This document shows positions 20,193-44,553 of a stretch of DNA of 64,000 nt, piece by piece. Source of the DNA: Gymnodinialimonas phycosphaerae (GTDB taxonomy: Bacteria; Pseudomonadota; Alphaproteobacteria; Rhodobacterales; Rhodobacteraceae); NCBI RefSeq assembly GCF_019195455.1, contig NZ_JAIMBW010000001.1, positions 1,798,001 through 1,862,000 of the forward strand, given 5' to 3'. Position 1 is the stretch's first letter; every line of letters begins with the position of its first letter. Made by a program: the position numbers and the translations under genes. The notes beneath the pieces were generated by a model, which ran no database searches, was not told the DNA's origin, and saw only the letters and a program-made list of their open reading frames with translations.

Positions 20193-20205
20193 GTGACCAT
20201 GTCAC
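20193..20205 (-). promoter_or_regulatory. GTGAC-N3-GTCAC palindrome, copy 1
   Basis: GTGAC CAT GTCAC, perfect 5-bp arms, 55 nt before the ATG at 20137. The same element occurs at 28915-28927 and 44541-44553. Proposed operator for the Crp/Fnr protein at 28971-29636. Confidence 0.6.
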
Positions 20206-20334
20206 TGTTGCCCCGAAAAACGCGGTCGTTGAGAAAAGAAGTGACCAAGGGCGCTGCGCACGAACGCCCGCAAATCATGTAGTAAGCGCCCCCCCGGGGG
20301 TGACAGGCAAAGCGACGAACGCCCGCAACGCGTG

Positions 20335-21354
20335 CTAGATATCCGCCAGCGCCACAGCCTTGCCGGTTTCCGCTGAACGGCTGATCGCCTCAAGAACCTG
20401 GATGTTGTGAACCATCTCGGCGGCGGTGAACGGATAGTCGGCACGACCCATGGCCGCATCGGCAAAGGCTTCGAGATTTGCCGTCACTGCATCCTCCCAA
20501 TCGTAGTCCCGTTGAACGACGGGCTGGCCTGATTGCGCCGTCAGGACCCGCACAATGCCGTCGGGCGTATCCGGGTGGCTGTCGTTCAGGACTTCAACCC
20601 ACTTGTCGGTGCCAAAGACGTGCATTCGGATGAAATGGGGCGTGTGAAGGACGGCGCTGAAAGTGGCGGTCATCCCGGCCACGAACTTCATCTGCACGGT
20701 TACAACATCGCCCGTCTCCCACCCCAACGATCGGTCTGCGGTGAAAGCGTGCAGCACCTCGATTGGCCCGAAGAACGAGATCAACAGATCGCTCAGGTGA
20801 ATGCCCATGCCCGTCATGCCCGCAGCGGGCGAAATCTCTTTGCGGGTGCGCCAATCGTTGGCGGGCACGCCGATCAGCTTATCGTGGCTGAAGGCCGCTT
20901 CCGCGTGCATGACCGTGCCCAGGGCCCCCTGTTCGAGGGCCGCGCGCAGGGCCAGCATGGCGGGTTCAAAGCGCCGCTCATGGCCAATGCCAAGCTGAAC
21001 GCCCGCCTCCGCGCAGGCCTGCACCGAGCGGCGCGCGCTGTCGGCTGTCAGGCCCAATGGCTTCTCGCAAAACACATGCTTGCCCGCAGCGGCAACCTGC
21101 GCGACTTGCGCCTCGTGCAGCGGATTGGGGGTGGTAAGGATCACGGCATCAACCTCGGACAGGGCCAAGGCCGGGGCGAAATCATCCCATGCGGTCAGGC
21201 CCATAGCCTCGATGTTGGGGTGATTTTGCGCGGCAGGCTCGATCACTCCGGCGACACGCAGCCACGGATGATCCTGCAACCGCGTGGCAATGTGCTTGCC
21301 CCACCAGCCGAACCCGGCAATGGCCAAGACAAACGGTTGCGGCACGTCGTTCAT
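20335..21354 (-). CDS. Gfo/Idh/MocA family NAD(P)-dependent oxidoreductase
   Basis: A protein of 339 residues with an N-terminal Rossmann fold (IAGFGWWGKH) and the family's EKPLGL catalytic-lysine motif, then the C-terminal alpha/beta substrate domain. The likely substrate is a sugar, inositol or related polyol; the sequence does not say which. The ATG at 21354 follows GGGGGGAT. It stands alone between sulfur genes with no obvious metabolic partner. A decayed dapA-like aldolase gene lies just upstream on the same strand, so this may be the survivor of a small catabolic operon. Confidence 0.8.
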   Translation of the reverse strand: MNDVPQPFVLAIAGFGWWGKHIATRLQDHPWLRVAGVIEPAAQNHPNIEAMGLTAWDDFAPALALSEVDAVILTTPNPLHEAQVAQVAAAGKHVFCEKPLGLTADSARRSVQACAEAGVQLGIGHERRFEPAMLALRAALEQGALGTVMHAEAAFSHDKLIGVPANDWRTRKEISPAAGMTGMGIHLSDLLISFFGPIEVLHAFTADRSLGWETGDVVTVQMKFVAGMTATFSAVLHTPHFIRMHVFGTDKWVEVLNDSHPDTPDGIVRVLTAQSGQPVVQRDYDWEDAVTANLEAFADAAMGRADYPFTAAEMVHNIQVLEAISRSAETGKAVALADI

Positions 21355-21527
21355 GGGATCCCCCCTCTATTCATTCGGTCTGGTGCAATGCGCGTTTGAC
21401 GCGCGCCGCCCCATCAAAACCGTTGCGCCAGCGTAGCGACAGCGGCCCCATCAGGCCAAATTATGTAACCTGATGTGAGCCCACAGATATCGTGATGCGC
21501 CCTTCCCGGCGTCTTGCACAGCGTCCT

Positions 21528-21999
21528 TCATTGCCCGGGCGTCCAAGGCGCTTCCGGCGCGCGCCAAACCCGCCAGATCGTTTTCCAGGCGGCCTTTTGC
21601 TCATCCGACAGCGGCAACGGCGGCGGCTGCATTTGTAGCCGCCCCTTATCCCCGTGCGCCGGGCGTTCGTCGTTTTCATCACTGCCATCAACGGATATTT
21701 CGACGCCGTGGCGCGAGGCGACTTTTAGGACCTCCATCGCAGCATCACCGGCGGGCCCGTTCGCCAAGCCGGGCAACCTACGCCTTTGGCGGGGTGTTGT
21801 TGATGGCGCCCGCGATAATCGGGCCGAACTCTGCCCGCAGGCGCAGAACCAGATCGGTGGAAAATGGGACCAGTGACATCTGCGGGAAGTGATAAAGGAA
21901 GACGCGAAGTTCATCGCGCCCGACCTGCTCGATCAGGCGTGCATGATGCGTGAACAGCGCGTCACCGGATGGCCCCTTGTCGTAGTGGGCCGCCAAGTT
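21528..21999 (-). pseudogene. Remnant of a dihydrodipicolinate synthase/NAL-family aldolase
   Basis: Minus-strand fragments in two frames. 21999-21778 encodes HARLIEQVGRDELRVFLYHF then a segment ending FGPIIAG, the middle of DapA-family aldolases just before the catalytic Lys (usually in G-I-K-D-S); here it runs into INNTPPKA and a stop. From about 21670 to 21528 in another frame, QMQPPPLPLSDEQKAAW resembles the family's C-terminus. The N-terminal part, the catalytic Lys segment and about 60 following residues are missing. The surrounding 21355-21527 and 22000-22106 hold no gene; AT-rich sequence with an imperfect repeat ATGCATT-N4-AATGTAT (about 22038-22055) may be the promoter of the next gene. 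Confidence 0.7.
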
Positions 22000-22106
22000 G
22001 GGGCGACATCGATTTTTCTGGCGCGCCCGCCTTATATATGCATTTCTGAATGTATTGACCTATCACCGATAATCCTTCGCGCCTAAGGCGAAGGGGGAGG
22101 CCCCAC

Positions 22107-23024
22107 GTGAACACCCTGACCCGTCGCCAATCGCTGGGATTTTTGGCAGCCGCCGCAATACTTCCCAAACAAGTCTTCGCTGCCGAGCGTGTCGATTTGG
22201 GCACGATGCAACTGGTCACGCTGAGTGACGGCAACCTGACGCTTCCTGCCAACCTGGTGTTTGCGCCTGTGGCGGATCGCGATTTGCTGTCCGTCGTCGC
22301 CCCCCTTGGGATCGAGGATTTGACAGCCCCCCTCACCCCACCCTGCAACGTCACGCTTATTCGCGATGGCGCGCGGACCATTTTGTTCGACTGCGGCGCG
22401 GGTCCGGCGTTTCAAGCCAGCGCCGGACGCTTGCTGGACGCGCTTTCTGCCGAAGGGCTCAGCCCGGATGATGTCACGGATCTTGTCTTTACCCATGCCC
22501 ATCCCGACCACCTCTGGGGGGTGCTGGACGACTTTGATGAGCCGATGTTTCTAAACGCCACCCATTGGATCGGCCGCGAGGAACGGGATTACTGGACGGC
22601 ACCGGACACGGTGGACACCATCGGCGCGGACCGCACCGCCTTTGCCGTGGGTGCCGCCCGACGCCTGTCGGCCATTGAAGGCGCGTTGGAAACCTTTGAG
22701 GACGGGCAAGAGATTTTGCCTGGCATCGCCGCCCATCTGACGCAAGGGCATACGCCCGGCCATGTCTCGTTCGAGGTGGCCAATGGGGGGCAGACCGCCA
22801 TGATCATCGGCGACGCCATCGCCAATGACCACATTGCCCTCGCGCGGCCCGATTGGCCGGCGGGCTCGGACCAGGACCAGGAGATCGGCGCGCAGACCCG
22901 TAGGCGCTTGGTGGAACGCTTGGCCGATGAAGACATCATCGCCGTTGGCTTCCACTTGTCCAATGGCGGCGTTGGACGGGTCGAGCGCACCGCTGACGGG
23001 TTTCGCTTCAACCCGCAGGTCTAG
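22107..23024 (+). CDS. Exported MBL-fold metallo-hydrolase
   Basis: A protein of 305 residues with a signal sequence of twin-arginine appearance (TRRQSLGFLAAAAILP, cut near residue 25) and a metallo-beta-lactamase fold. The metal motif THAHPDHLWG and a later QGHTPGHVSFE give the two-metal site. The start is a GTG at 22107 after GGGGGAGG (22093-22100). Paracoccus has MBL-fold sox proteins (SoxG/SoxH) and this could be a SoxH-like relative set apart from the sox operon; that is inference. It is convergent with the SulP gene, with 3 nt between stops. Confidence 0.75.
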   Translation: MNTLTRRQSLGFLAAAAILPKQVFAAERVDLGTMQLVTLSDGNLTLPANLVFAPVADRDLLSVVAPLGIEDLTAPLTPPCNVTLIRDGARTILFDCGAGPAFQASAGRLLDALSAEGLSPDDVTDLVFTHAHPDHLWGVLDDFDEPMFLNATHWIGREERDYWTAPDTVDTIGADRTAFAVGAARRLSAIEGALETFEDGQEILPGIAAHLTQGHTPGHVSFEVANGGQTAMIIGDAIANDHIALARPDWPAGSDQDQEIGAQTRRRLVERLADEDIIAVGFHLSNGGVGRVERTADGFRFNPQV

Positions 23025-23027
23025 CCG

Positions 23028-24764
23028 TCAGGCCGCGTCGGTTGAGGGGCCGCCCCGCGACAACGCCCGCCATGCGTCATATTGCGACAGGAAAATCCGG
23101 CCATTCAGCGCATCCGCCAGGTGAGAGGTCTTGAGCCTGTCCATCACCGGTCCCTTTACCTCCGACAGGTGCAGTCCGATACCCATGTCCTTCAGGCGCA
23201 GGTTGATCGCCTCAAGGCTTTCGAGGGCAGAGTAATCGACCTCGTTAACGGCCGAGAACATCAGGATGACGTGCTTCACGTCGGTTCCCGGCCTGATACG
23301 GTCCTGCAAGAGATCCTCCAGGAACCTTGCGTTCACGAAGAACAAGCTTTGGTCGACGCGTAGCGTGACGATCTCGGGGACCGTCTCGACAGCGTGGCGG
23401 TGGATGTTTCGGAAATGCTGGGTGCCGGGCACAAGCCCGACCTCCGCCACGTGGGGGCGCGAGGTTTTGTAGAGATGCAGCGCCACGGACAGGACGACCC
23501 CAGAGGCCACGCCGATCTCGACTCCGAAAGCTAGCGTCAGGGCGATCGTGGTGGCGACCGCCATGAAGTCTGACCGAGAATAGGCCCACGTTTTCCTCAG
23601 GATCGTCAGATCCACGAGGCCCAGGACCGCGACGATGATCGTCGCCGCAAGGGTGGCGTTGGGCAGGTAGTAAACCAGGGGCGTCAGCGCCACGGCGGCC
23701 AGCATCAAGCCAAGGGCGGTGAAGGCGCCCGCGGCGGGCGTCTCTGCCCCGGCGTCGAAGTTCACAACAGAGCGAGAGAAGCCACCCGTCACCGGGAAAC
23801 CGCCGGAAAACGCCGCGCCAAGGTTCGCGGCGCCAAGGCCAATCAGCTCTTGGTTGGGGTCGATACGCTGACGTTTGCGCGCGGCCAGCGTTTGCGCGAC
23901 CGAGACGGATTCGACGAAGCCGATGACCGAAATCAGAACCGCAGGCAGCCAAAGCGCGCGGATCAGATCCATCGACAGGCTCGGCAAGGTGAAGGGCGGC
24001 AAGCCCTGCGGCACCTCGCCCACGATGCGGACGCCTAGGTCGTCCAGGTTCAAGACCCAAACGGCCAACGTAGTTGCCACGACGGCGAAAACCGGGCCCG
24101 CCTTGGTCGCCACATCGGCGAGTGTCGCCCCTGCGCCCAGACGCTTCAGCAACGGCTTCAACCCCTTGCGGACCCAGAACAGGAACGCGGTGGCCGCCAC
24201 GCCAATCACCAACGTGGGGCCATTGATATCCGACAGATGCGATGCGAGGGAGCTCAGCAGCTCGGGCAGCGTATGCCCATGGGCGCCAATGCCCAGAATA
24301 TGTTTCAACTGGCTGGCAGCGATCAGAATGCCAGAGGCGGTGATAAAGCCCGCAATCACCGGATGACTGAGGAAATTCGCCAGAAACCCAAGCCGCAAGA
24401 TCCCCGTGAGGGCCAGGAAGGCCCCCGACAGGAATGCCAGCGTCAGCGCCGCGACGCCGTAGCCAGCCGTGCCTTGCTCGGCCACTTCTGCCAGGGCCGA
24501 AACCGTCAGCAATGAGACAACCGCCACCGGCCCCACGGCAAGCGAGCGGCTGGTGCCGAAAATGGCGTACAGGATGATCGGCACGATCGAGGCGTAGATC
24601 CCCGCCTCGGGCGGCAGGCCGGCCAGCATCGCATAAGCCAGGGACTGCGGGATCAGCATGATCGTGACGATCAGCGCGGCGATCATGTCGTTGGAGAAGG
24701 CCGTGCGGTCGTAGGTGCGCCCCCATTGGAGGACGGGAATGAAGCGTGCGATGCGGTTGAACAT
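23028..24764 (-). CDS. SulP family inorganic anion transporter with STAS domain
   Basis: A protein of 578 residues: about 12-14 membrane segments followed by a C-terminal cytoplasmic STAS domain (about 440-560). QSLAYAMLAGLPPEAGIYAS near the N-terminus and the ELIGLGAANLGAAFSGGFP segment are SulP hallmarks. SulP proteins exchange sulfate, bicarbonate or other anions; next to a persulfide-oxidation operon, sulfite/sulfate movement is the likely job. The ATG at 24764 is chosen because the longer frame (to 24941) would overlap the SQR gene; the ribosome site is weak, and the gap from the SQR stop is 71 nt. Confidence 0.88.
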   Translation of the reverse strand: MFNRIARFIPVLQWGRTYDRTAFSNDMIAALIVTIMLIPQSLAYAMLAGLPPEAGIYASIVPIILYAIFGTSRSLAVGPVAVVSLLTVSALAEVAEQGTAGYGVAALTLAFLSGAFLALTGILRLGFLANFLSHPVIAGFITASGILIAASQLKHILGIGAHGHTLPELLSSLASHLSDINGPTLVIGVAATAFLFWVRKGLKPLLKRLGAGATLADVATKAGPVFAVVATTLAVWVLNLDDLGVRIVGEVPQGLPPFTLPSLSMDLIRALWLPAVLISVIGFVESVSVAQTLAARKRQRIDPNQELIGLGAANLGAAFSGGFPVTGGFSRSVVNFDAGAETPAAGAFTALGLMLAAVALTPLVYYLPNATLAATIIVAVLGLVDLTILRKTWAYSRSDFMAVATTIALTLAFGVEIGVASGVVLSVALHLYKTSRPHVAEVGLVPGTQHFRNIHRHAVETVPEIVTLRVDQSLFFVNARFLEDLLQDRIRPGTDVKHVILMFSAVNEVDYSALESLEAINLRLKDMGIGLHLSEVKGPVMDRLKTSHLADALNGRIFLSQYDAWRALSRGGPSTDAA

Positions 24765-24835
24765 GGGGAAACCAGGATGGTGGCGCGCCGAGGTCTCCCG
24801 GCGCGCGCGTTGAAAGGGTCTTGCTTGGATGGTGC

Positions 24836-26515
24836 CTACTGCGCGGCGACCTTCAGCTTCTCGGGCCGGGCCATCCATTCCTTGCCCCGCAGCATCGCCT
24901 TCCAGTAGATCGGCGGCAGTAACTTCTCTTTCAGGAACCACGCGGCCCGCGTGGGCTTGGTGCCATCGACAAGGAACTTCGGGAAGCTAGGCAGCAACAC
25001 CCCGCCATAACCGAATTCCGCCAGCACGATCTTGCCGCGCTCGACCGTCAGGGGGCACGAGCCATAGCCGTCGTACTGCGCCGTGGCCGAGCGTCCGTCG
25101 ATGTCGGCGGCGATGTTTTCGGCCACCACGGGCGCTTGCTTGCGCGCGGCGGCGGCGGTCTTGGCGTTGGGGGCGTTCATCACATCGCCCAAGGCCCAGA
25201 TGTTGTCATAGGTCTTGTGGCGCAGCGTCGACTGCTCCACGTCGACCCAACCGGCCGCGTCGGCCAATGGTGAGACGCGGATGAAATCAGGCGCGGTCTG
25301 CGGCGGGCAGACATGCATCATGTCGAAATCCACCGTGACCTCGCGCGGCTCCGCATCTGGTTCCTTGACCGCAAAGGTGGCCCGTTTGGCAGGGCCGTCG
25401 ACGGCGACAAGGTTGTGGAAAAAGTTCACGTCGGCGTTGTATTTCTTGATGTAGCTCTCCAGCGCGGGGACATAATCCTTCACGCCGAACAGGACGCCCC
25501 CAGCGTTCATGAACTGGATGTCGATGTCTTTCAACACGGCCCGGCGATGCCACGCATCCGCCGACAGATAGAGCGCCTTTTGCGGCGCGCCCGCACATTT
25601 GATCGGCATGGGCGGCTGGGTGAACAGCGCCCGGCCTTCCTTCATCTCTTGCACCAACTGCCACGTGTAGGGCGCGAGATCATAGCGGTAGTTCGAGGTC
25701 ACGCCGTTGCGGCCCAACGTGTCCTCCAACCCCTCTACGCTGCCCCAATCGAGCTTCAGGCCCGGACAGACGACGAGGCGCGTATACTTCACCACGCGAC
25801 AGCCATCGAGCACGACGGCATTGTTCTTGGGCTCAAAGGCCGCGACGGCGGACTTGATCCAATGCACGCCGCGCGGGATCAGCGAACCCATCGTCTTGGC
25901 GGTGTCCTGGGCCTCGAAAATACCGCCACCAACCATGGTCCAACCGGGCTGATAATAGTGGATGTCAGCCGGATCGATGATTGCAATGGACAGGTCCGTT
26001 GTGCGCGTCTGCAAGCTGGCGGCCACGGAAATGCCCGCCGCCCCCGCGCCCACGATGACGATATCATAGGAGGCATCGCCGGTGTCCGTGGGGGTCTTGC
26101 CGCCATTGGCGATGCGGCGTGCCACACCGTTCATATCGTAGCCCGCCGCCTTGGTCGCCGCGAGGATATCCGCGATCGGCTTTTCCTTTGCCTGCGCCAG
26201 TGACCACAAGGTGGCAGATCTTGTACCGGTCCGGCAATAGGCGAGGATCGGGCCCGGCAGTTCGCGCAAAGCCGCCCCGAATTCGGCCGCGTCAGCGTCC
26301 GTCACCATGCCGGCCGTGATGGGGATATACCGCACCTCAAGACCCGCCACCTCGGCCGCAGCTTCGATTTCCTCGAAGCTCGGCTGATCCGCCCCTTCCC
26401 CATCGGGGCGGTTGCAGATAATGGACCTGATGCCCTCAGCTTTGAGAGCGGCAACGTCAGCCGGTGCAATTTGTGGGCTGACCGACACTGCGTCGGATAT
26501 TTTTCGAAGGTCCAA
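24836..26515 (-). CDS. Fused phosphatase-like (DUF442) / sulfide:quinone oxidoreductase
   Basis: A protein of 559 residues. Residues 1-110 are a beta-lactamase-hydrolase-like DUF442 domain with an intact phosphatase loop CRTGTRS (94-100). Residues about 148-559 are a flavoprotein of the SQR family (GAGAAG 156-161; KCAGAPQKALYL with redox C307; HYYQPGW; C-terminal YDGYGSCPL). The enzyme oxidises sulfide to a persulfide and passes electrons to quinone. Compared with the mitochondrial-type enzyme, the second redox Cys (in G-D-C) is Val445 here; C250 and C403 are possible substitutes. It starts with TTG at 26515 after GGAGAAAG, 21 nt after the EF-hand gene, in the persulfide operon. Confidence 0.88.
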   Translation of the reverse strand: MDLRKISDAVSVSPQIAPADVAALKAEGIRSIICNRPDGEGADQPSFEEIEAAAEVAGLEVRYIPITAGMVTDADAAEFGAALRELPGPILAYCRTGTRSATLWSLAQAKEKPIADILAATKAAGYDMNGVARRIANGGKTPTDTGDASYDIVIVGAGAAGISVAASLQTRTTDLSIAIIDPADIHYYQPGWTMVGGGIFEAQDTAKTMGSLIPRGVHWIKSAVAAFEPKNNAVVLDGCRVVKYTRLVVCPGLKLDWGSVEGLEDTLGRNGVTSNYRYDLAPYTWQLVQEMKEGRALFTQPPMPIKCAGAPQKALYLSADAWHRRAVLKDIDIQFMNAGGVLFGVKDYVPALESYIKKYNADVNFFHNLVAVDGPAKRATFAVKEPDAEPREVTVDFDMMHVCPPQTAPDFIRVSPLADAAGWVDVEQSTLRHKTYDNIWALGDVMNAPNAKTAAAARKQAPVVAENIAADIDGRSATAQYDGYGSCPLTVERGKIVLAEFGYGGVLLPSFPKFLVDGTKPTRAAWFLKEKLLPPIYWKAMLRGKEWMARPEKLKVAAQ

Positions 26516-26536
26516 GATCTTTCTCCTCGTTATGGT

Positions 26537-27022
26537 TTAACGGCGACCGAAGTCGTCTGTTGTCACGATGCCGTCGCCATTGCGGTCCAGCATCTGTAAC
26601 CACGCGGCTGCCTGAGCCAGGAACTCGGCCTCGCTGACTTCGCCATTGCCATCGACATCGTTGAATTCAAGCGTCATACCCGCCGCGGCGCGCTGCATCG
26701 GGCTGCCATTGCCGCCCCCGTTGCCATTGCCGTTGCCGCTGCCGCTGCCGTGGCCCGGCTCATTGGCCATGTCGTTTTCACGTGCCTCATCGAACATCAC
26801 GTATTCTTCACCGTCGATTGCGCCGTTTTCATCAGCATCGAAGGTAAAGAACACGTCGCCGCGCCGAGTACGGATTTCATCCACCGTGACGACGCCGTCG
26901 CCGTCCAGGTCCCAGTTCACAATGAAGTGGTCACCGGGTGCGGCCAAAGCAGGCGCAGCACTGAAAGACAGTGCTGCCCCCAAAGCGACGGCTGGCATCG
27001 TCGAGAAAATCGAGTTCTGCAT
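26537..27022 (-). CDS. Exported EF-hand calcium-binding protein
   Basis: A protein of 161 residues with a Sec signal peptide (cut after about residue 28, PALAA) and four EF-hand loops: 38-49, 62-73, 122-133 and 146-157, each with the D-x-D/N-x-D/N-G pattern. The pairs are separated by a Gly/Ser/Asn linker (92-106). It should be periplasmic and bind up to four Ca2+. It lies between persulfide dioxygenase (32-nt gap) and the SQR fusion (21-nt gap), so it belongs to the same operon. A calcium role in this pathway is not something I know of; a structural or signalling role for periplasmic sulfur handling is inference. Confidence 0.85.
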   Translation of the reverse strand: MQNSIFSTMPAVALGAALSFSAAPALAAPGDHFIVNWDLDGDGVVTVDEIRTRRGDVFFTFDADENGAIDGEEYVMFDEARENDMANEPGHGSGSGNGNGNGGGNGSPMQRAAAGMTLEFNDVDGNGEVSEAEFLAQAAAWLQMLDRNGDGIVTTDDFGRR

Positions 27023-27054
27023 CAGTCTGTTCCTTTATGTGGCTGCTCGCGACC

Positions 27055-27939: not shown

Positions 27940-27950
27940 GTCTGTATTCC

Positions 27951-28391: not shown

Positions 28392-28394
28392 CTT

Positions 28395-28826
28395 TTATCC
28401 TCCGAACACGTGGCGCACGACGTAAACCGTGGCCAGGGTGACGACCATGAACGTCCCGGTCGCAACGATGGAACGGGGCGACAGGCGCGCCATGCCGCAT
28501 ACCCCGTGACCCGAGGTGCAGCCGCCGCCGAAGGTCACACCGACGCCCACGATCAGCCCGCCGACCAGCAGCATCACCGTGCTCACAGGTACCTGAACCG
28601 CTGGCATCGCGCCGCTGATCGCCAGGACGACGAGAGGGCCCGTGACCATGCCGGCCACTGTCGCGGCGCGCCATGCGAAATCGGATTTGGAGGCCGGATA
28701 GACCAGCCCCGCAAGGATGCCTGTCGCCCCCATGACCCGCCCGTGGAACAGCATGAGCAGTGTCGCGCCCAAGCCGATGAGCACGCCGCCCAAGAGGGAT
28801 ATCCAAGGGGTGAATTCAGTCTCCAT
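28395..28826 (-). CDS. YeeE/YedE-type half transporter, first subunit
   Basis: A protein of 143 residues with four membrane segments and the Cys motif GGGCTSGHGVCGMARLSPRS, the signature of the other half of the YeeE/YedE fold. The ATG at 28826 follows GGAGAGAC; an in-frame codon at 28850 has no ribosome site. It is the first gene of a six-gene operon (YeeE half, YeeE half, PDO, EF-hand, SQR fusion, SulP). A GTGAC-N3-GTCAC palindrome lies 88 nt upstream. Confidence 0.88.
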   Translation of the reverse strand: METEFTPWISLLGGVLIGLGATLLMLFHGRVMGATGILAGLVYPASKSDFAWRAATVAGMVTGPLVVLAISGAMPAVQVPVSTVMLLVGGLIVGVGVTFGGGCTSGHGVCGMARLSPRSIVATGTFMVVTLATVYVVRHVFGG

Positions 28827-28914
28827 GTCGTCTCTCCATTGTGGATGCACAGCCGATTCAACGCCGACCGCGCTTGTGTCTGCATGTATCTAAGACAGCT
28901 GCCACCAACGTTCA

Positions 28915-28927
28915 GTGACGAAGTCAC
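28915..28927 (-). promoter_or_regulatory. GTGAC-N3-GTCAC palindrome, copy 2
   Basis: Plus-strand reading GTGAC GAA GTCAC. It lies in the 144-nt gap between the Crp/Fnr gene stop and the persulfide operon. On the minus strand it reads GGTGACTTCGTCACT, nearly identical beyond the arms to copy 3. Confidence 0.65.
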
Positions 28928-28970
28928 CAAACCATGCAGATTTTTAGATGAGACCGCAAAAAGGAAGGTT

Positions 28971-29636: not shown

Positions 29637-29721
29637 CCGCTCTACCTATCGTGATTGGCCGCAGCGGCGGCGCAAGGGCTGCCGATGACCGGTTGTGGTG
29701 TATTGAGTCGTGGCGTTTTCA

Positions 29722-30792
29722 CTAAGCGACGGAAGGCCGCCGCACCGTTTCCAGATAGGTCAACACCAGCGATGTTGCTACCCCTCCGCCCCAGATCGAC
29801 AGGGCCGCAACCCATGCCGTCACCGCCATGATCGCGCCGCCGGACATCGCCGCGCCCACGGCACATCCGCCCGCCAACATTGCACCGAAGCCCATCAAGA
29901 CGGCACCCACGAGGTAGCGCTCCATCGGCGTGTCGCTACTGAAGCGCTCAATGTGCCATTCCCGGAACAGGATCGCAGCCCCTCCCGCCCCCAGAAACAC
30001 GCCGGGGACAAGGCCAAGACCGAAGGACAAGGGCACCGAGCGTTCGGCCACGAAGGCCATGAGTGTATCCGTCGCGGGCCCGGTGAAGGTCACGCTGGAC
30101 ACGTCAAAAACCTCGAACGAAACCTGGGACAGCGCGTAGGTGGCCCACCAGCCAAGGGTGACGGCGCCCCCTACGCACGCGGCGGCAAAGATCTTCGTCC
30201 AAGCCAGTTTCCTATACCGCGCAAGCCCGATCGACACGGCAAGCGCCGCCACGGCACCCCACGTCACAACGGCGGTGGACAGCGACAGGACATACCCAAG
30301 ATCACGCCCGTCGCCGCTGATCACCCAAAGTTGCGACAGGTATTCGCGCGACGGGGCGAGGATCCCACGCAGCGACGATTGCGCCACGACCGTCAGAACC
30401 AGCCCGGTGATCAGCGCGCGCAGGTTCCCGGTCGCAGACAGCACCAGCAAGCGGCTGGCGCAACCACGTGCCAGAACCATGCCGATCCCGAAAAGCATGC
30501 CGCCGATGATCGCGCCGGAGAGGCTTCCCACGCCCGACAAGGGGCGCGCTTGCGACACGTCCAGCGCGCCGAACAGAATGGCACCCTGCGTGGTGGCCAG
30601 CGCCGCGAAAAAGGCCACCAGCCAGACCGACATGCGCGGCCCAAGGACCCTTTGCGACACCTCCACCGTCGAGGCCCGTAGGCAGAAGGCGGACCGCTGC
30701 GCCGCCACGCCGAAGACAAGGCCCACGCTTAATCCCGCCATGAGCAGAACCATGTCGTCGCCGAAGGTATCGATAAGGTATTCTAGGGGCAT
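29722..30792 (-). CDS. Full-length YeeE/YedE family transporter (TsuA-like)
   Basis: A protein of 356 residues with about nine to ten membrane segments and internal duplication, typical of the YeeE/TsuA thiosulfate importer family. Conserved cysteines sit in ARGCASRLLVLS and AGGCAVGAAMSGG, which in the solved YeeE structure relay the substrate through the membrane. An FNR-like box lies 54 nt upstream at 30846-30859. It is followed by the Crp/Fnr gene (85-nt gap). Confidence 0.88.
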   Translation of the reverse strand: MPLEYLIDTFGDDMVLLMAGLSVGLVFGVAAQRSAFCLRASTVEVSQRVLGPRMSVWLVAFFAALATTQGAILFGALDVSQARPLSGVGSLSGAIIGGMLFGIGMVLARGCASRLLVLSATGNLRALITGLVLTVVAQSSLRGILAPSREYLSQLWVISGDGRDLGYVLSLSTAVVTWGAVAALAVSIGLARYRKLAWTKIFAAACVGGAVTLGWWATYALSQVSFEVFDVSSVTFTGPATDTLMAFVAERSVPLSFGLGLVPGVFLGAGGAAILFREWHIERFSSDTPMERYLVGAVLMGFGAMLAGGCAVGAAMSGGAIMAVTAWVAALSIWGGGVATSLVLTYLETVRRPSVA

Positions 30793-30845
30793 GGCGCTCT
30801 CGGGATTGACTGCTGCCGTCCTATCCGCCGCCCCGGTTTCATGCC

Positions 30846-30859
30846 TTGACCCACATCAA
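30846..30859 (-). promoter_or_regulatory. FNR-type box upstream of yeeE
   Basis: TTGAC-CCAC-ATCAA, close to the FnrL/FixK consensus TTGAY-N4-RTCAA. It lies between the hemA stop (30861) and the YeeE start. Confidence 0.5.
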
Positions 30860-30860
30860 T

Positions 30861-33866: not shown

Positions 33867-33947
33867 ATTGTATTCCTCCCATTGTGCGCGCCATGTGCCG
33901 CGTCTTCTTTAATTGGCCTCTCCCGGGCCAAATGATGTCGCTCCGCC

Positions 33948-34643: not shown

Positions 34644-34644
34644 C

Positions 34645-35691: not shown

Positions 35692-35695
35692 GATC

Positions 35696-36967: not shown

Positions 36968-37002
36968 CGGGTTCCTTTCTCGATCGGCAGAGGGGGTGTC
37001 GC

Positions 37003-38697: not shown

Positions 38698-38714
38698 GGT
38701 TGGCCTCGATATAT

Positions 38715-38730
38715 ATTCGTGATTTCGAAT
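38715..38730 (-). promoter_or_regulatory. Perfect ATTC-N8-GAAT operator upstream of soxB
   Basis: ATTC (38715-38718), 8 nt, GAAT (38727-38730), 17 nt before the soxB ATG. ATTC-N8-GAAT is, from memory, the site reported for the persulfide-sensing repressor SqrR of Rhodobacter. The likely binder here is SoxR (43005-43361). Confidence 0.65.
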
Positions 38731-38743
38731 GTTTAGACTGAAA

Positions 38744-38772
38744 CCCCTCCCCGACGGCATGTCAGGGAGGGG
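38744..38772 (-). terminator. Strong hairpin between soxA and soxB
   Basis: Minus strand CCCCTCCCTGAC, loop ATGCC, GTCGGGGAGGGG: 12 pairs with one T-G, then TTTC. It lies 8 nt after the soxA stop and probably separates soxXYZA from soxBCDEF transcription. Confidence 0.65.
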
Positions 38773-38780
38773 AAAGGGTC

Positions 38781-39650
38781 TTAGTTTCGGACGGAGGGAC
38801 CTTCGACGGTCAGACCGTTGCCGCGCGTGGCGACATAGAGTTCCAGCGCGATGAACTCATCGCTACCTGGGGCAAAGGACTCCGCCCGCGTGTCGCGGAT
38901 GCACCCAAAGAAGCGCCCATGGACCGAGTTCAGGCGCGAGTTACGCAGACGGTACGTCGGGAAGCCGTTGATCTGGCCCTGGCTCAAGTGATCGGCACGA
39001 ATGTTGTTGCCGTAGTTCTGTTCGTGACAGTTGGCGCAGCTCAACTCCAAAAGACCATAGCGGGTGTAGTAGATCTCTTCGCCCTGCTCCCATGTGGACT
39101 GGGCCGGGCCATCCATGGCAACGTCAATCACCATGCCGCGGCTGACAGAAGAAATCAGCGCGGACATCTGGCGCATTGGCCCGCTGTCGTAGCCGTAGGC
39201 TTCCGCGCCCATCCGCTCGGTCATGCATTCGGTGATCTGCATCTCGACCGTCTGGACTGTGCCGTGCTCTTCATCCCACTGGGGATATGTCGCGCGCACA
39301 CCGGCAAGGCTTTCGGGATTCTCATGGCAAGAGGCGCAGCTTTGCCCCTCGGTCCCCATGACCGTGTTGAACGTATCGCGGGCAAGGTCGACGTCCAGCA
39401 TGGCGGGGTTGTCGAAGTCATCTGCCTGCATCGCTTGCGTTCCGGGAGAACGGAACACCCAGCCCGAGTAGATCGTGTCGAAGACATCCTCCAGAAATTC
39501 CGGCGGATCCGTTTCCACGATCATTTCGATGTCACCGTTCACGATCAGGATGTTCTCATCCCCGATGTCGGAAACCGCCGCAGTGGCGGCGACAATCGCC
39601 GCGATCGCAGCGCTTCCCGCAACGAATAAGGGTTTGCGTTTGATAGCCAT
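38781..39650 (-). CDS. soxA: SoxA, diheme cytochrome c of the SoxAX complex
   Basis: A protein of 289 residues with a Sec signal peptide and two heme motifs, CASCH (105-109) and CANCH (205-209). C142 is the expected distal ligand of the first heme, and C250 in FFGCIRDTRAE is the active-site cysteine (persulfide ligand of the catalytic heme). SoxAX joins thiosulfate to SoxY. This is the two-heme form typical of Rhodobacteraceae. It starts 30 nt after soxZ. Confidence 0.95.
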   Translation of the reverse strand: MAIKRKPLFVAGSAAIAAIVAATAAVSDIGDENILIVNGDIEMIVETDPPEFLEDVFDTIYSGWVFRSPGTQAMQADDFDNPAMLDVDLARDTFNTVMGTEGQSCASCHENPESLAGVRATYPQWDEEHGTVQTVEMQITECMTERMGAEAYGYDSGPMRQMSALISSVSRGMVIDVAMDGPAQSTWEQGEEIYYTRYGLLELSCANCHEQNYGNNIRADHLSQGQINGFPTYRLRNSRLNSVHGRFFGCIRDTRAESFAPGSDEFIALELYVATRGNGLTVEGPSVRN

Positions 39651-39680
39651 GATTGTCGTCCTCCCGATGACGGCTAGAGC

Positions 39681-40010
39681 TTAGCTGACGGTGATGTCTG
39701 CGGTTTCCTCGTAGATGGAACCGTCATCGTCGTACCAAGTGAAGTTGAACGTGCCCGTCTCGTTCACCACCGCTTCGAACTGGAAGTAGGGGTTGGTCGA
39801 GATCGACGGCTCGATCGTGACGTCGATCACGTTGATGCCGTTGAAGTCACACACGAAGCGGTTGATGATCGACCGCGGGATGATGTTGCCATCACCGTCG
39901 CGGCGCTGGCCGCTTTCCATGACGTGGCTGATCAGCGACCGGACGGAGACGATGTCTCCGGCGGAGGCTTCACGAGGGACGCGGACGCGGGGTGTTACGT
40001 TATCTGCCAT
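39681..40010 (-). CDS. soxZ: SoxZ, carrier-complex subunit
   Basis: A protein of 109 residues without a signal peptide, as usual: SoxZ is exported together with SoxY. It is an immunoglobulin-like beta sandwich (VRVPREASAGDIVSVRSLI; NTGTFNF-type strand near the end). It starts 17 nt after soxY. Confidence 0.95.
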   Translation of the reverse strand: MADNVTPRVRVPREASAGDIVSVRSLISHVMESGQRRDGDGNIIPRSIINRFVCDFNGINVIDVTIEPSISTNPYFQFEAVVNETGTFNFTWYDDDGSIYEETADITVS

Positions 40011-40027
40011 TGTTCTTTCTCCCTAAC

Positions 40028-40450
40028 TCAGCCGCCGCAGCCGCCGATGGTGACGCGCACGGTCTGGCTGGCGCTCACAAATGATCCGTCTGGCATGCGC
40101 GCGATCGCCATGACATCTTGTTCCCCGGCCAGGCGAATACGCGTGGACGCCGCTGACGACCCGGACGCCGGGCCGAAGTTGAACGTGGCCACATCCGGGT
40201 TCGGGTTACCGGTGGCGAGGACAATGATCGCCTCCGCACCGGGGGCATCGACCTCGATCGGGACGGTGTTGCCGTTCTCGGCAATCTCGGGGGCGATCAG
40301 TGTCATGCCGCCATCGGCCATATCGGCGCCACTGGTGAAGGCGTTGATCGCATCTTCGACCTCTTGGGCCGTAGCAGTCAGTGGCATCGCCAGGAAAGCC
40401 GCGACTGCGGTCAGGCCTGTGCCAACAAAAGTTCTGCGGGTCATCGACAT
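40028..40450 (-). CDS. soxY: SoxY, sulfur-carrier protein
   Basis: A protein of 140 residues with a twin-arginine-like signal (TRRTFVGTGLTA) and the C-terminal swinging arm GGCGG (136-140), whose C138 carries the sulfur intermediates through the Sox cycle. It forms SoxYZ with the product of the next gene. Confidence 0.97.
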   Translation of the reverse strand: MSMTRRTFVGTGLTAVAAFLAMPLTATAQEVEDAINAFTSGADMADGGMTLIAPEIAENGNTVPIEVDAPGAEAIIVLATGNPNPDVATFNFGPASGSSAASTRIRLAGEQDVMAIARMPDGSFVSASQTVRVTIGGCGG

Positions 40451-40492
40451 ATCGAATGATCTCCTTGGATGGAACGGGGGGTTAAGCTTTGA

Positions 40493-40969
40493 TTAATCTC
40501 TGAGCGTGAGCAGGTAGGCTACGACGTCCTCGATATCCTGCGCAGACAGGATCGGGGACAACGGACCTTCCGCCGCGTTGCCGGTGTACCCGTCGCCGGG
40601 GCGCGTGAAGCCCGAGACGCGGTAGAATGAAGGCATGACAGAGTCCGGGAAAACCGCCTTGGCGTTCACCATGATGCCGCGCAGCGCCGCTTCTTCCCAG
40701 CGGTCCCCTGCCCCATCAAGCGAGGGCCCGACCTCTCCATGGAAGTCGTACGCGTCAAGGGCGGTGACCTGATGGCACGCAATGCAGTTGCCCAGGCCCC
40801 GGTCGGTCATCACTTCGATACCCCGTGTCGGATTGCCGGGCACGCCCGTCAGCGATTCGGCGACGTCGCCGTATTCGTTAGATACGACATCATCAGGGGA
40901 TGTAACGTCGGCATGTGAAGTGGTTGCGGCTAAAGCCAGACCAGCCACCAAGATGATATGGCGTTTCAA
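40493..40969 (-). CDS. soxX: SoxX, monoheme cytochrome c of SoxAX
   Basis: A protein of 158 residues with a Sec signal peptide (KRHIILVAGLALAATTSHA), one heme motif CIACH (62-66) and the Met ligand M112 in VMPSFYR. The TTG at 40969 is chosen since GGAGGA (40981-40976) directly precedes it; the in-frame TTG at 40984 would place the ribosome site inside the gene. Its upstream region (40970-41095) carries an FNR-like box and AT-rich repeats. Confidence 0.93.
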   Translation of the reverse strand: MKRHIILVAGLALAATTSHADVTSPDDVVSNEYGDVAESLTGVPGNPTRGIEVMTDRGLGNCIACHQVTALDAYDFHGEVGPSLDGAGDRWEEAALRGIMVNAKAVFPDSVMPSFYRVSGFTRPGDGYTGNAAEGPLSPILSAQDIEDVVAYLLTLRD

Positions 40970-41027
40970 GTTCGATCCTCCCAAGGTCGATTCAGTCTCC
41001 CGTCGTATACCGTAGACGCAGGCTCAC

Positions 41028-41064
41028 GAATAATTCAACTACACATTTGCATTTTTGCATATGA
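41028..41064. promoter_or_regulatory. AT-rich repeat cluster upstream of soxX
   Basis: GAATAATTC (odd palindrome, 41028-41036) and TGCATTTTTGCA (about 41048-41059) lie in the soxW-soxX gap. They share ATTC/GAAT half-elements with the soxB operator but in the opposite order, so SoxR binding is only a possibility. Confidence 0.35.
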
Positions 41065-41077
41065 AATCGGCCCGACA

Positions 41078-41091
41078 TTGACTTCGATCAA
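41078..41091 (-). promoter_or_regulatory. FNR-type box in the soxW-soxX gap
   Basis: TTGAC-TTCG-ATCAA, 108 nt before the soxX start and 4 nt after the soxW stop. It matches TTGAY-N4-RTCAA and suggests redox or oxygen control of soxXYZA. Confidence 0.45.
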
Positions 41092-41095
41092 CGAG

Positions 41096-41668
41096 TCAGT
41101 CGTTTTCCGGCGACTGGGTGAGCAGCTGCCGCGCGTGGTATTGTTGGAAACTTTCTTCTCCGGCATAGCCTTCCTCAAGCACCCAATTGAACATGTTGAA
41201 AGTGGTCCAACGGCCGAAAGCGCCGGGCATTGTGGCCACCGCGGCCTCGATCCCAGTGGCGTCCGGCGCAACCTCCTGTGGAAAAAACAGAATCGTCGGG
41301 GTGAACAAGATCCGCCAGCGCCGGACGACTTCACTTTCCGACATGACCTCTCCGTCGAAATCGACAACCTCGGTGCTGCCGTACATGTTCAGGCGCACGA
41401 CGAAGAAATCGTCGGTCAGCAACTGCTCAATCTCGGGGACAACGAAGACCTCTTCGTACATCTCCGCGCAGTAAATGCAGCCGCGCTGCTCGATGATGAT
41501 GGCAAGGCGCTGGCCGTTGGCGGTAGCTTCCTCCAGATCCTCGCGCATGTCGCGGAAGGTCTCCATCAACCACGGAGCCACGTGGAGCCCGTCGGCATTC
41601 AACTCGGCCTGCGCAGCAAGCGGGCTCAATGCCAAAGCCCCGGCTACCATCAATGATCTCAAGAACAT
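41096..41668 (-). CDS. soxW: SoxW, periplasmic thioredoxin
   Basis: A protein of 190 residues with a Sec signal peptide (cut after AAQA) and a thioredoxin fold with CIYC (C64-C67) and the cis-Pro segment FTPTILFF. It receives electrons from SoxV and keeps Sox cysteines reduced. The ATG at 41668 follows GGGGAGGAAAGCG. It lies 28 nt after soxV. Confidence 0.9.
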   Translation of the reverse strand: MFLRSLMVAGALALSPLAAQAELNADGLHVAPWLMETFRDMREDLEEATANGQRLAIIIEQRGCIYCAEMYEEVFVVPEIEQLLTDDFFVVRLNMYGSTEVVDFDGEVMSESEVVRRWRILFTPTILFFPQEVAPDATGIEAAVATMPGAFGRWTTFNMFNWVLEEGYAGEESFQQYHARQLLTQSPEND

Positions 41669-41696
41669 ATCGCTTTCCTCCCCTAGCGTTGGGCTG

Positions 41697-42437
41697 TCAG
41701 CCCATCGACTGAAAAACTTCGAAATTCGTGATCATCCACTGCCCGATGTAGTTCATCGCGTTCGTCGCGATCAGGACGCCAAAAATGACCAAGGCACCTC
41801 CGGTGATCTTCTCGACCTTGCCCAAGTGCCGGCGGAACCGGGACATAAGGGCCATGAACGGCCCAACGAAAGCGGCCGCCAGAATGAAGGGCAGCGTCAT
41901 TCCCAGCCCATAAGCCGTCAGCAGCCACGCCCCCTGCCCCGCCGTATCGGTGCCGGCCGCAGTGAAAAGGATCGCCGCAAGGATCGGACCGACGCAGGGC
42001 GTCCAGCCAAAGGCAAAGGCCAGTCCGATCAGGTAGGAGCCGCCAAGGCTGAGGTTGCGAGTGCTGCCCGCCTCGGACCGCCATTGGCGGTTCAGGATGC
42101 CAATGCGGAACACGCCGAGGAAGTGCAGGCCCATCACGATGATCAATGCCGCTGCGATCCAACGCAGCACGTCGAACCATTCGCGCACCAACTGCCCCAG
42201 CGCCGAGGCCGAAGCCCCCAGCCCCACGAAAACCGTCAGCATGCCGGCCGCGAAAAACAAAGCGGCCACGATGGCCCGCGCGCGCACCGATCCCGAAATC
42301 GTGTCCTGCCCCGCGACCGTGTTCACACTTACCCCGGCAAGGTAACTCAGATAGAACGGCACCATCGGCAGGACGCAGGGCGACAGGAATGACAACAGCC
42401 CCGCAAGGAACGCGCCGATAAAACTGACGTCTAACAT
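41697..42437 (-). CDS. soxV: SoxV, CcdA-type thiol electron transporter
   Basis: A protein of 246 residues with six membrane segments of the CcdA/DsbD-beta type. The two redox cysteines are in LSPCVLPMVPFYL and WTPCVGPILAA. It carries electrons from cytoplasmic thioredoxin to SoxW and SoxS outside. First gene of the minus-strand sox unit; it is divergent from soxS with a gap of only 23 nt. Confidence 0.92.
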   Translation of the reverse strand: MLDVSFIGAFLAGLLSFLSPCVLPMVPFYLSYLAGVSVNTVAGQDTISGSVRARAIVAALFFAAGMLTVFVGLGASASALGQLVREWFDVLRWIAAALIIVMGLHFLGVFRIGILNRQWRSEAGSTRNLSLGGSYLIGLAFAFGWTPCVGPILAAILFTAAGTDTAGQGAWLLTAYGLGMTLPFILAAAFVGPFMALMSRFRRHLGKVEKITGGALVIFGVLIATNAMNYIGQWMITNFEVFQSMG

Positions 42438-42460
42438 TAACCCTCATCCCGGTCACTTCG

Positions 42461-42883
42461 ATGCAAACACATTCAAGAATTCATATTAGATGTGCTTTCG
42501 AGCGCGGGTCAATTACCCGTTGCGTGGCGATGTTGCTTTGCACGCTTGGGTTGATCTCGACTTTGGGCGCCACGCCCGCGCGCGCCGAGATGTCGTTGCT
42601 GATGTTTGAAGAGGTCGGCTGCATGTGGTGCGCGCGCTGGAATGCAGACGTCAGCCCGGAATACCCGATCACGCCCGAGGGCATCGCCGCGCCCTTGCGT
42701 CGTCTGGACATCCACGACGCCCTGCCAGAGGATCTGGCACTGACGTCGCGCCCCCGTTTCACACCGACCTTCGTGTTGATCGAAGATGGAACCGAGGTGG
42801 GCCGGATCGAGGGCTATCCCGGCGAGGATTTCTTTTGGGGTCTGCTGGCCCGTTTGATCGCCCAAGCCACGCCAGAGGATTAG
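42461..42883 (+). CDS. soxS: SoxS, periplasmic thioredoxin-like protein
   Basis: A protein of up to 140 residues with a hydrophobic signal (about 24-42, cut near ARA) and a thioredoxin-like active site CMWC (C54-C57). In Paracoccus, SoxS reactivates SoxYZ by reducing its cysteine. The start is doubtful: no ribosome site precedes the ATG at 42461, and a weak ATTC-N8-(G)AAT-like element lies over its first codons (42471-42486); an ATG at 42530 or GTG at 42524 would leave a signal peptide without a positive N-region. Confidence 0.82.
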   Translation: MQTHSRIHIRCAFERGSITRCVAMLLCTLGLISTLGATPARAEMSLLMFEEVGCMWCARWNADVSPEYPITPEGIAAPLRRLDIHDALPEDLALTSRPRFTPTFVLIEDGTEVGRIEGYPGEDFFWGLLARLIAQATPED

Positions 42884-43004
42884 GCGAAACGCTTGCGGTA
42901 TTGATTTTTTTGCAAGGATTGTGCCATTTTGGTAGCCCTGCACCTGCAGAAAACATAAGCAGGAGGGGCTCGATTGTCCGAATTTCACTGAAAACAGCAC
43001 ACCC

Positions 43005-43361
43005 ATGGCGCCCCAAACTGCACAGACCCGATCCATTTTGCCCGACCCGGGCGAACCGATGGACGATGCGAAGTGGAACCGTGTGCGCGACAATGCGCAA
43101 GAAGCGACCGACTTTCTGAAAGCGCTTAGCCATGAGGGTCGCCTGATGATCCTGTGTTCGCTCGCCCATGGCGAGAAATCCGTGACCGAGTTGGAACAGA
43201 TGCTGTCGCAACGCCAGGCTGCCGTGTCGCAACAGTTGGCACGGTTGCGCCAGGAGCGGCTGATTTCAGCGCGCCGCGAAGGCAAGCAGATCTTTTACAG
43301 TTTGACAGATGACCGCGCGCGCCGGATCATCGAACAAGTCTACGAGTTGTTCTGCGCATAA
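43005..43361 (+). CDS. soxR: SoxR, ArsR-family persulfide-responsive repressor (SqrR/BigR type)
   Basis: A protein of 118 residues with a winged helix-turn-helix (TELEQMLSQRQAAVSQQLARL region). The cysteines C51 and C117 are 66 residues apart, exactly as C41 and C107 of Rhodobacter SqrR, which form a tetrasulfide bridge on meeting persulfide and release DNA. The first 18 residues are extra and the start may be at Met19 (43059). It overlaps nothing; the next gene, a YeeE, begins 46 nt after its stop. A perfect candidate operator is in front of soxB. Confidence 0.92.
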   Translation: MAPQTAQTRSILPDPGEPMDDAKWNRVRDNAQEATDFLKALSHEGRLMILCSLAHGEKSVTELEQMLSQRQAAVSQQLARLRQERLISARREGKQIFYSLTDDRARRIIEQVYELFCA

Positions 43362-43407
43362 CCCCAGTGTCGGCCTTTGCTGTCACCAGGTGCGCATCGG
43401 AGGGAAC

Positions 43408-44463
43408 TTGCTCGACACCATTGGTGAATCGGCTGCGATCCTGCTTGTTGGCGGGGTAGGTGGCACCCTTCTTGGCCTGGCCGCGCGCCTGGGCAAGTTC
43501 TGCACGCTTGGCATGGTAGAGGATGCGCACTTCGGCCAGGACTTCGGACGCATGTGGATGTGGGTGACGGCGCTTGGCGTGGCGATCACCATGAACTTCG
43601 GTGCGGATGCGCTGGGATATATCGATCTGTCGGCGACCGGCCTTCTGTCAACGCGCTTTTCCGTTCCCGGCGCACTCCTCGGTGGCCTTCTGTTCGGCTA
43701 TGGCATGGCCCAGTCGGGCAACTGTGGCTACGGTGTTCTGGCCCGACTGGGCGGCGGTGACATCCGTGCCCTGATGATCGCGCTGGTGATGGGGATCACG
43801 GCGACCGCCACGATCTTCGGCGTGCTGTCGGGAATACGCAACGGGCTGTTCCCGTTCGAGCCGTCCCCCGGCGCTCCGCAAGGTCTTGCCCATTGGGTGG
43901 GCGACGCATTTGGCCTGTCCGCAAACGCCATCGGGCTGACCGTTGGGATCCTGGCGCTTCTTGCCTCCATCCGCTTCCAGACAACCGGCCACCGCCTGCG
44001 TCGGGTAGCATGGGGGGCGGTCGTGGGCGTTGCCATCAGTTCCGGCTTCATCGGCACCTATTCCATCGCTACCCAAGGGTTCGAGCCTTGGCCTATCGCC
44101 TCCCATACCTTCACCGCGCCGGTCGGAGACACGATTCACTACGCCATGTATTCCACCGGCCTTCTGCCGAAGTTCGGCATCGGGTCGGTTCTGGGGGTTC
44201 TGATCGGCAGCGTGATCGGCAGCCTGATCCAGGATGGCTTCCGCTGGGAAGCCTGCGATGACCCCAGAGAGCTGCGTCGCCAATTGGCCGGTGCCGCGAC
44301 CATGGGCTTCGGCGCCGTGCTGGCGGCTGGGTGCAGCGTCGGACAGGGCCTGTCCGCGCTGTCGATGTTCTCGGCGACCGCGCCCCTTGTCGCGGTCAGC
44401 ATCTGGTTCGGCGCATGGCTGGGGCTGAAGCACCTGATCTACGGGTTCGAACGCGCGACCTAG
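43408..44463 (+). CDS. YeeE/YedE family transporter beside soxR
   Basis: A protein of 351 residues with about ten membrane segments and two YeeE repeats. Cysteines sit in SGNCGYGVLARLGGG and AAGCSVGQGLSALS, the substrate-relay positions of the family. The TTG at 43408 is chosen since GGAGGG lies just upstream (43399-43404). Transcribed with soxS and soxR. It is the fourth YeeE/YedE protein of the island. Confidence 0.87.
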   Translation: MLDTIGESAAILLVGGVGGTLLGLAARLGKFCTLGMVEDAHFGQDFGRMWMWVTALGVAITMNFGADALGYIDLSATGLLSTRFSVPGALLGGLLFGYGMAQSGNCGYGVLARLGGGDIRALMIALVMGITATATIFGVLSGIRNGLFPFEPSPGAPQGLAHWVGDAFGLSANAIGLTVGILALLASIRFQTTGHRLRRVAWGAVVGVAISSGFIGTYSIATQGFEPWPIASHTFTAPVGDTIHYAMYSTGLLPKFGIGSVLGVLIGSVIGSLIQDGFRWEACDDPRELRRQLAGAATMGFGAVLAAGCSVGQGLSALSMFSATAPLVAVSIWFGAWLGLKHLIYGFERAT

Positions 44464-44540
44464 GTTCTTGCCCCCGGACGCTCCAAGACGCCTTCCTCAC
44501 GTCAGTGTGATGGAAAAGCCGGTGAAACCGAGCCAGCTTT

Positions 44541-44553
44541 GTGACTTCGTCAC
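44541..44553 (+). promoter_or_regulatory. GTGAC-N3-GTCAC palindrome, copy 3
   Basis: GTGAC TTC GTCAC, 55 nt before the ATG at 44609. The wider sequence TGTGACTTCGTCACC is nearly the same as the minus-strand reading of copy 2. Confidence 0.65.

Follow-up and report, generated by a model that had tools for sequence, protein, structure and literature searches.

Three copies of a palindrome in front of sulfur genes

The 64-kb window of Gymnodinialimonas phycosphaerae described here (the whole stretch of DNA that was analysed, from a host genome of 4.32 Mb) contains three perfect copies of the palindrome GTGAC-N3-GTCAC, together with a gene for a Crp/Fnr-family protein, P0001, which is the proposed reader of these sites. 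The copies lie at 20193–20205, 28915–28927 and 44541–44553, exactly where the original prediction had placed them, and the chance expectation for the window is 0.02 (100 dinucleotide shuffles, none of which reached three); a scan of the window with one mismatch allowed yields zero extra copies, against 2.16 expected. Copy 1, on the reverse strand, reads GTGACATGGTCAC towards a leftwards transcribed TsoY-family gene (18923–20137; NCBIfam NF047644, 508 bits against a cut-off of 150) and ends 55 nt before its ATG. Copy 2, also on the reverse strand, reads TTTG-GTGACTTCGTCAC-TGAA towards a YeeE gene; it is located 43 nt 3′ of the Crp/Fnr gene, 64 nt upstream of the first YeeE open reading frame (ORF; 28395–28850) and 88 nt upstream of the likely ATG at 28826. 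Copy 3, on the forward strand, reads GTGACTTCGTCAC and ends 55 nt before the ATG at 44609 of a rightwards transcribed gene (44609–44800; Pfam PF11127) for a DUF2892 or YgaP-like transmembrane protein. Both 55-nt distances had been predicted correctly, and the noted likeness of copies 2 and 3 beyond their arms extends to the whole 13-mer when each is read towards its gene.

The gene for P0001 (28971–29636, reverse strand) is located between copy 2 and a large YeeE gene (29722–30792), as predicted. The original prediction had noted this regulator but left a second one unmentioned, an ArsR-family protein (43005–43361, forward strand) whose best curated match is BigR, at 105 bits and under the cut-off of 155. 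The ArsR protein has two cysteines, and its gene adjoins a full-length YeeE gene and lies upstream of the DUF2892 gene.

Behind copy 2 is an operon of six genes, all transcribed leftwards. The first is the YeeE half-gene (Sulf_transp, PF04143; 28395–28850), for which the METEFTP start common to its relatives supports the start at 28826, and it is followed by a second YeeE/YedE half (DUF6691, PF20398; 27951–28391), a persulfide dioxygenase-like (PDO) protein with a metallo-beta-lactamase fold (PF00753; 27055–27939) and an EF-hand protein recognised by Pfam (26537–27022). The next gene encodes a sulfurtransferase-like (TIGR01244) domain fused to an SQR-like flavoprotein (24836–26515; the SQR model match is under its cut-off), and the last a SulP-type permease with a STAS domain (PF00916, PF01740; 23028–24941), whose true start is probably later than that of the ORF ending at 24941.

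The apparent rarity of the site holds for the window but not for the genome, where the exact 13-mer occurs 13 times and a reversed-pattern control 0 times. The same arms with spacers of 0 to 20 give 113 matches in the host genome, of which 100 are spread over the remaining 20 spacings (about 5 each), so that N3, with 13, stands out from them. ORF analysis places six of the 13 exact sites within coding ORFs (L001–L005 and L012), and these are background; because of these six, and because other spacings occur about five times each, a site cannot be called regulatory on the strength of an exact match alone. The seven outside ORFs include the three window copies, i.e. those before TsoY (L006), before the YeeE/PDO/SQR operon (L007) and before the DUF2892 gene (L008). 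The other four lie after cydC and before cydA (L009); upstream of a small ORF followed by the Crp gene P0002 and cydDC (L010); between an aldehyde dehydrogenase gene and a 1-Cys peroxiredoxin gene (L011); and across the stop of the Crp gene P0003, with a second DUF2892 gene following (L013/L016). The cyd names were assigned by reading the sequences, without a family-model match; other gene names are from Pfam. The regulon thus appears to be wider than first noted, with a second DUF2892 gene, cytochrome bd and peroxiredoxin as putative additions. We note that in Acinetobacter sulfide raises CydAB, and a yeeE-yedE-pdo2 operon is under BigR control (PMC7315123). The small ORF ahead of P0002 and cydDC encodes 84 amino acids (L014:11712–11966, reverse strand) and begins 55 nt after the L010 site.

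Relationship between the site and the regulator gene

Thirteen genomes of the genus were compared, with E ≤ 1e-6 as the threshold for a P0001 homologue. Ten contain a homologue and all ten have a perfect site beside it, within 110 nt of the 3′ end of the crp homologue or overlapping it, with YeeE or DUF2892 as the next gene; the expectation that the sites would track the Crp/Fnr orthologue in related genomes is borne out. A perfect site between crp and YeeE, as in copy 2, is also present in G004, G005, G007 and G008, and G004 has a counterpart of copy 3, with a perfect site at about the same distance before its DUF2892 gene. The three genomes without a homologue (G001, G003 and G006) lack regulon-type sites: they have nine exact matches, eight of them ORF-internal and one outside, without a known regulon gene. 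The genus has 89 exact matches, and the surroundings of 40 of them were examined in addition to the host's 13 sites and the sites adjoining crp genes. Most of these 40 are ORF-internal in the regulator-bearing genomes too, and those outside ORFs lie before DUF2892 (G002 and G004), between peroxiredoxin and aldehyde dehydrogenase genes (G004, as in the host, G000) and before PDO-SQR (G008). TsoY is present in three of the 13 genomes (E ≤ 1e-30), each with a site of at most one mismatch 51–55 nt before the gene; in the two other than the host it is a one-mismatch site, at 51–54 nt. Genome G005 also has a second perfect site upstream of its crp gene (L033:1331–1343), which may reflect autoregulation there.

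A wider collection comprised at least 593 candidate stretches, of which 578 were confirmed, and the best 80 loci of the Crp relative were analysed. When all 5-mer palindromes with spacers of 0–12 are scanned, GTGAC-N3-GTCAC ranks first, being present in 51 of these 80 loci compared to 33 for the runner-up; other spacings (0–20) of the same arms occur in only 0–2 loci. Between −20 and +400 of the crp stop, 69 of the 80 loci have a site that is perfect (46) or has one mismatch (23). The reversed pattern gives 0/80 in the same region, never with fewer than two mismatches, and an equal-length upstream control window contains a site of at most one mismatch in just 1 of 74 loci. Going downstream from the site, the first gene to be recognised is DUF2892 in 38 of the 69 loci, PDO in 16, YeeE in 11 and SQR in one, with none in three; recognition used 23 host proteins as queries, so that unrecognised genes may lie in between. 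The proposed tie between the sites and persulfide genes is therefore seen in 66 of 69 loci, if DUF2892-type genes are included. Further exact sites within the best 80 loci lie before a peroxiredoxin-cydA pair (L092) and near cydA (L104).

At the level of the class, the number of exact 13-mers per genome was set aside as a test for the regulator because it is too noisy, with genome G054 having the regulator and no sites, and G094 having 14 sites and no regulator. The 19-letter pattern TNNGTGACNNNGTCACNGA is sharper, being present in 5 of the 11 genomes at this level in which a P0001 homologue is found at E ≤ 1e-30, and in 11 of the 131 without one. Seventeen loci were recovered with this pattern, and a Crp gene is present in all six from regulator-bearing genomes and in none of the 11 others.

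When 299 genomes of the phylum were searched with a profile, 78 gave matches, from which 30 loci were listed; 21 are outside the host's class, all in one family (f153). In 14 of these 21, a site with no more than one mismatch adjoins the gene, and in 13 of the 14 a DUF2892 gene comes next. On comparative evidence from sequence, the dedicated regulon that had been proposed is real and extends past the class into one further family, with support from the first rank of the palindrome, its recurrence in a family of another class, and the sulfur genes that follow it.

The PDO genes provide a view from the opposite direction. Among the best 30 PDO relatives (L172–L201), 14 have the regulator gene in the same stretch, and a site with no more than one mismatch is present in 13 of these 14; 7 of the other 16 also have such a site, although in these the stretch may stop short of the gene. 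As controls, 20 PDO loci of lower identity (60–68%) were taken in which the stretch contains no regulator gene; 19 of them come from genomes with one PDO match. No perfect site is present in any of the 20, and the one-mismatch matches in three of them are more than 700 nt away from the start of PDO; six of the 20 have a recognised ArsR gene like that of the window. Absence of the regulator here means absence beside PDO: genome G161 has a profile match elsewhere, and G034, G156, G157, G160 and G164 have none at 1e-30.

Operator shape and promoter geometry

Removal of near-identical sequences reduces the 69 sites to 66, and their logo shows T at −9 (57/66), GTGAC, a spacer of A, A or T, and any base, GTCAC, G at +8 (61/66) and A at +9 (58/66), for an extended consensus of T-NN-GTGAC-AWN-GTCAC-YGA. 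Downstream, a TA step at +29/+30 is present in 48 of the 66 sites, compared to 11 at the next-best offset and a mean of 1.8 at the others, and in 13 of the 14 sites from outside the class. Taking this TA as the start of a −10 hexamer at −12 puts the centre of the site at −41, and positions +6 to +11 of the operator would then coincide with a degenerate −35 element. Activation at class II CRP and FNR promoters occurs from about −41, and both the predicted centre and the fixed distance to the predicted −10 agree with class II activator geometry. For copy 2 the predicted −10 hexamer is TAGATA (28887–28892, reverse strand), at the fixed distance from the operator. Some promoters have CAAAAT or CAAAAC instead of the TA (L039, L041 and L203), as does window copy 3 (CAAAAC), and this is perhaps an alternative type of −10.

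Two other kinds of site were considered and set aside. An SqrR-type site, ATTC-N8-GAAT, occurs once in the window (38715–38730), in line with the chance expectation of 0.71, and not at these promoters; boxes of the RegA/PrrA type are argued against by the strict spacing of the operator.

The regulator and its relatives

P0001 belongs to the Crp/Fnr superfamily, with matches above the curated cut-offs to both PF00027 (the N-terminal cNMP-type domain) and PF13545 (the C-terminal Crp helix-turn-helix). It is not a CRP as judged by the NCBIfam equivalog model (35.2 bits against a cut-off of 266), and it contains only two cysteines, in a C81-x5-C87 arrangement, rather than the four of the [4Fe-4S] cluster of FNR. 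Its recognition helix is TAREVVSR. Both cysteines are kept in 80/80 of the best loci, a count that is biased because C81 sat in one of the two search peptides; across the 30 loci listed from the phylum profile search, C81 is present in 30/30 and C87 in 28/30. By sequence comparison with solved structures, the two residues align with the nucleotide-binding cassette region of other Crp proteins. The best solved relative of the family profile is another Crp/Fnr family protein, PDB 3dv8 (1.8e-36), which keeps the C-x5-C at the same place; its record names no target or signal.

The host has four members of this group, P0001 and three relatives that are 54% (L042), 36% (P0003) and 32% (P0002) identical to it. 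The recognition helix of P0002 is the same as that of P0001. L042 (G000:C1:1950777–1951418) lies directly after a peroxiredoxin-like gene in the host genome.

Interpretation and alternatives

We consider it highly probable that the Crp/Fnr subfamily of P0001 uses GTGAC-N3-GTCAC as its operator and switches on genes of sulfide and persulfide defence from a class II position. A P0001-type regulator would bind the operator as a dimer, with the centre some 41 bp upstream of the transcription start, and would activate, in class II fashion, sigma-70 promoters in which a −10 is present and the −35 is poor. It would control DUF2892, YeeE/YedE, persulfide dioxygenase, sulfurtransferase-SQR and SulP genes, with TsoY, peroxiredoxin and cytochrome bd as extra targets in the host. 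The C81-x5-C87 pair in the nucleotide-cassette region probably senses sulfane sulfur or a related thiol signal, and sulfane sulfur is our best guess because of the placement of the cysteines, the C-x5-C of 3dv8 and the nature of the target genes. The observations behind this proposal are the conserved operator, its placement beside the regulator gene and before sulfur genes, the fixed −10 phasing, and the lack of regulon-type sites in the three regulator-free genomes of the genus; binding by P0001, activation and the signal are what we infer.

Several points weigh against this proposal. First, gene order alone cannot prove which protein reads the site, because site, crp and sulfur operon travel together. 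Secondly, Crp/Fnr dimers would not be expected to have an odd spacer in their operator, and the palindrome is centred on a base pair. Thirdly, the association has exceptions: 11 of the best 80 loci and 7 of the 21 outside-class loci have no site of at most one mismatch beside the crp gene, the extended pattern is absent from 6 of the 11 class-level genomes with a homologue, and the exact 13-mer counts of the 142 class-level genomes, judged by eye, do not separate them by presence of the regulator. Within the host, window copies 1 and 3 do not have the TA at +29/+30 (copy 3 reads CA), P0003 adjoins a perfect site and has a differing recognition helix, SGRAYVTR, and no site with fewer than two mismatches lies within 1.4 kb of L042.

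The alternative that survives best, and one compatible with the proposal, is that the operator is real and of Crp type but is shared by the four Crp members of the host, with the cyd-linked P0002 or P0003 being the main reader of some sites. P0001, P0002 and P0003 are each located near a site, and we regard this as a serious possibility, somewhat short of even; however, nine of the ten homologue-bearing genomes of the genus have a single match and the site is still beside it. A somewhat less likely but still plausible reading is that the regulator senses another signal such as nitric oxide, peroxide or low oxygen, and that the sulfur genes respond indirectly. Other Crp/Fnr members sense O2, NO or CO, the genes for cytochrome bd and peroxiredoxin also have general roles under stress, and in Bradyrhizobium nnrR affects an operon that includes a DUF2892 gene (PMC6710368). 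This explanation fits poorly with DUF2892, PDO, YeeE and SQR being the most constant genes after the site, and with the two cysteines of P0001 where the FNR cluster is bound by four.

It is very unlikely that the sites are read by another regulator sharing these operons, e.g. the BigR-like ArsR protein of the window, with crp being simply a neighbour. Such a gene is present in the window and the BigR-controlled operon of Acinetobacter (PMC7315123) provides a precedent, but no perfect site is found in the 20 related PDO loci without an adjacent Crp, six of which have the ArsR gene; an ArsR match is present in just one of the best 80 crp loci; and the fixed −41 position fits an activator and not an ArsR repressor. 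Finally, an origin of the palindrome by chance or by the composition of a GC-rich genome, which the ORF-internal matches and the background of other spacings in the host might suggest, can be dismissed from the excess in the window, the first rank of the palindrome, its fixed place beside crp, its −10 phase and its recurrence outside the class.

Taking the P0001-operator proposal further, we lean slightly towards the broader view that this is a Crp/Fnr branch, present in two classes of one phylum, in which the nucleotide switch has been replaced by a C-x5-C sulfane-sulfur switch combined with an odd, base-centred operator. Where the ArsR sensors SqrR or BigR are not in control of the sulfur operons, sulfide and persulfide defence, as well as sulfide-proof respiration (cytochrome bd), would chiefly be activated by this branch. 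If true, a Crp/Fnr activator with its own operator adds a family to the reactive-sulfur sensors, gives a context for the recurrent DUF2892 and YeeE genes beside the regulator, and allows regulons to be read from the sequences of marine Alphaproteobacteria and other bacteria. How a Crp-type dimer would read two half-sites centred on a base pair is a structural question raised by the odd spacer.

Comparison with known systems

The site had been described as unlike those of Crp (N6) and FNR (TTGAT-N4-ATCAA), and this is well supported, with GTGAC-N3-GTCAC in 51 of the best 80 loci and GTGAC-N4-GTCAC in 2. In E. coli CRP sites the spacer between GTGA and TCAC is N6. The GTGA half-site and the predicted activation from about −41 are shared with that protein, but the operator here is GTGA-N5-TCAC and does not match TGTGA-N6-TCACA, and P0001 has cysteines in its nucleotide-binding cassette region. 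Likeness to FNR and the FnrL of Rhodobacter is seen in the Crp/Fnr fold, the E-x-x-S-R recognition helix and a half-site near TTGAC; the differences are the N3 rather than N4 spacer, the G at the outer position of the half-site (GTGAC), the lack of the four-cysteine Fe-S set and the sulfur regulon. We know of no other odd-spaced Crp/Fnr operator, and a literature search aimed at such operators found none.

FnrL sites are of the even-centred TTGAC-N4-GTCAA type (PMC2908626), and CrpK of R. sphaeroides has FnrL-like targets (PMC4344238). HcpR of Desulfovibrio also adjoins its own target genes and has a GTGA half-site, but its site, TTGTGA-N6-TCACAA, has even spacing and its targets are hcp and sulfate-reduction genes; the CooA site, TGTCGGC-NN-GCCGACA, is likewise even-centred (both PMC545781). 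RedB of Rhodobacter capsulatus (rcc01561) represents a little-studied Crp/Fnr subgroup of the Rhodobacterales, with an AT-rich, non-palindromic 12-bp motif and a regulon of energy and biosynthesis genes (PMC9603854); the palindromic operator described here is set apart from it by the descriptions of motif and regulon.

SqrR/BigR, FisR and CstR resemble the proposed system in that cysteine chemistry answers reactive sulfur, and BigR and FisR control PDO, YeeE or SQR genes (PMC9774590, PMC7315123), but these are ArsR, sigma-54 activator and CstR types and none is Crp/Fnr. The reactive-sulfur sensors named in the excerpt of a review are CstR, SqrR, BigR, PigS, FisR, OxyR, LasR and OhrR, with no Crp/Fnr member (PMC9774590). 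Searches of open-access literature turned up neither a Crp/Fnr regulator of these genes nor this operator among the titles and abstract openings listed; group A, B, C or G of PMC2908626 may be the same subfamily. What appears to be new is that this subfamily, an odd operator and a sulfur regulon come together.

Domain arrangement of the dioxygenase and SQR-like genes

The PDO protein of the window covers positions 139–422 of the Blh model NF040641 (365 bits, under the cut-off of 625). This model joins a TIGR01244-like domain to a dioxygenase, whereas in the window the dioxygenase is encoded by a separate gene and the TIGR01244-like domain is fused to the SQR-like flavoprotein.

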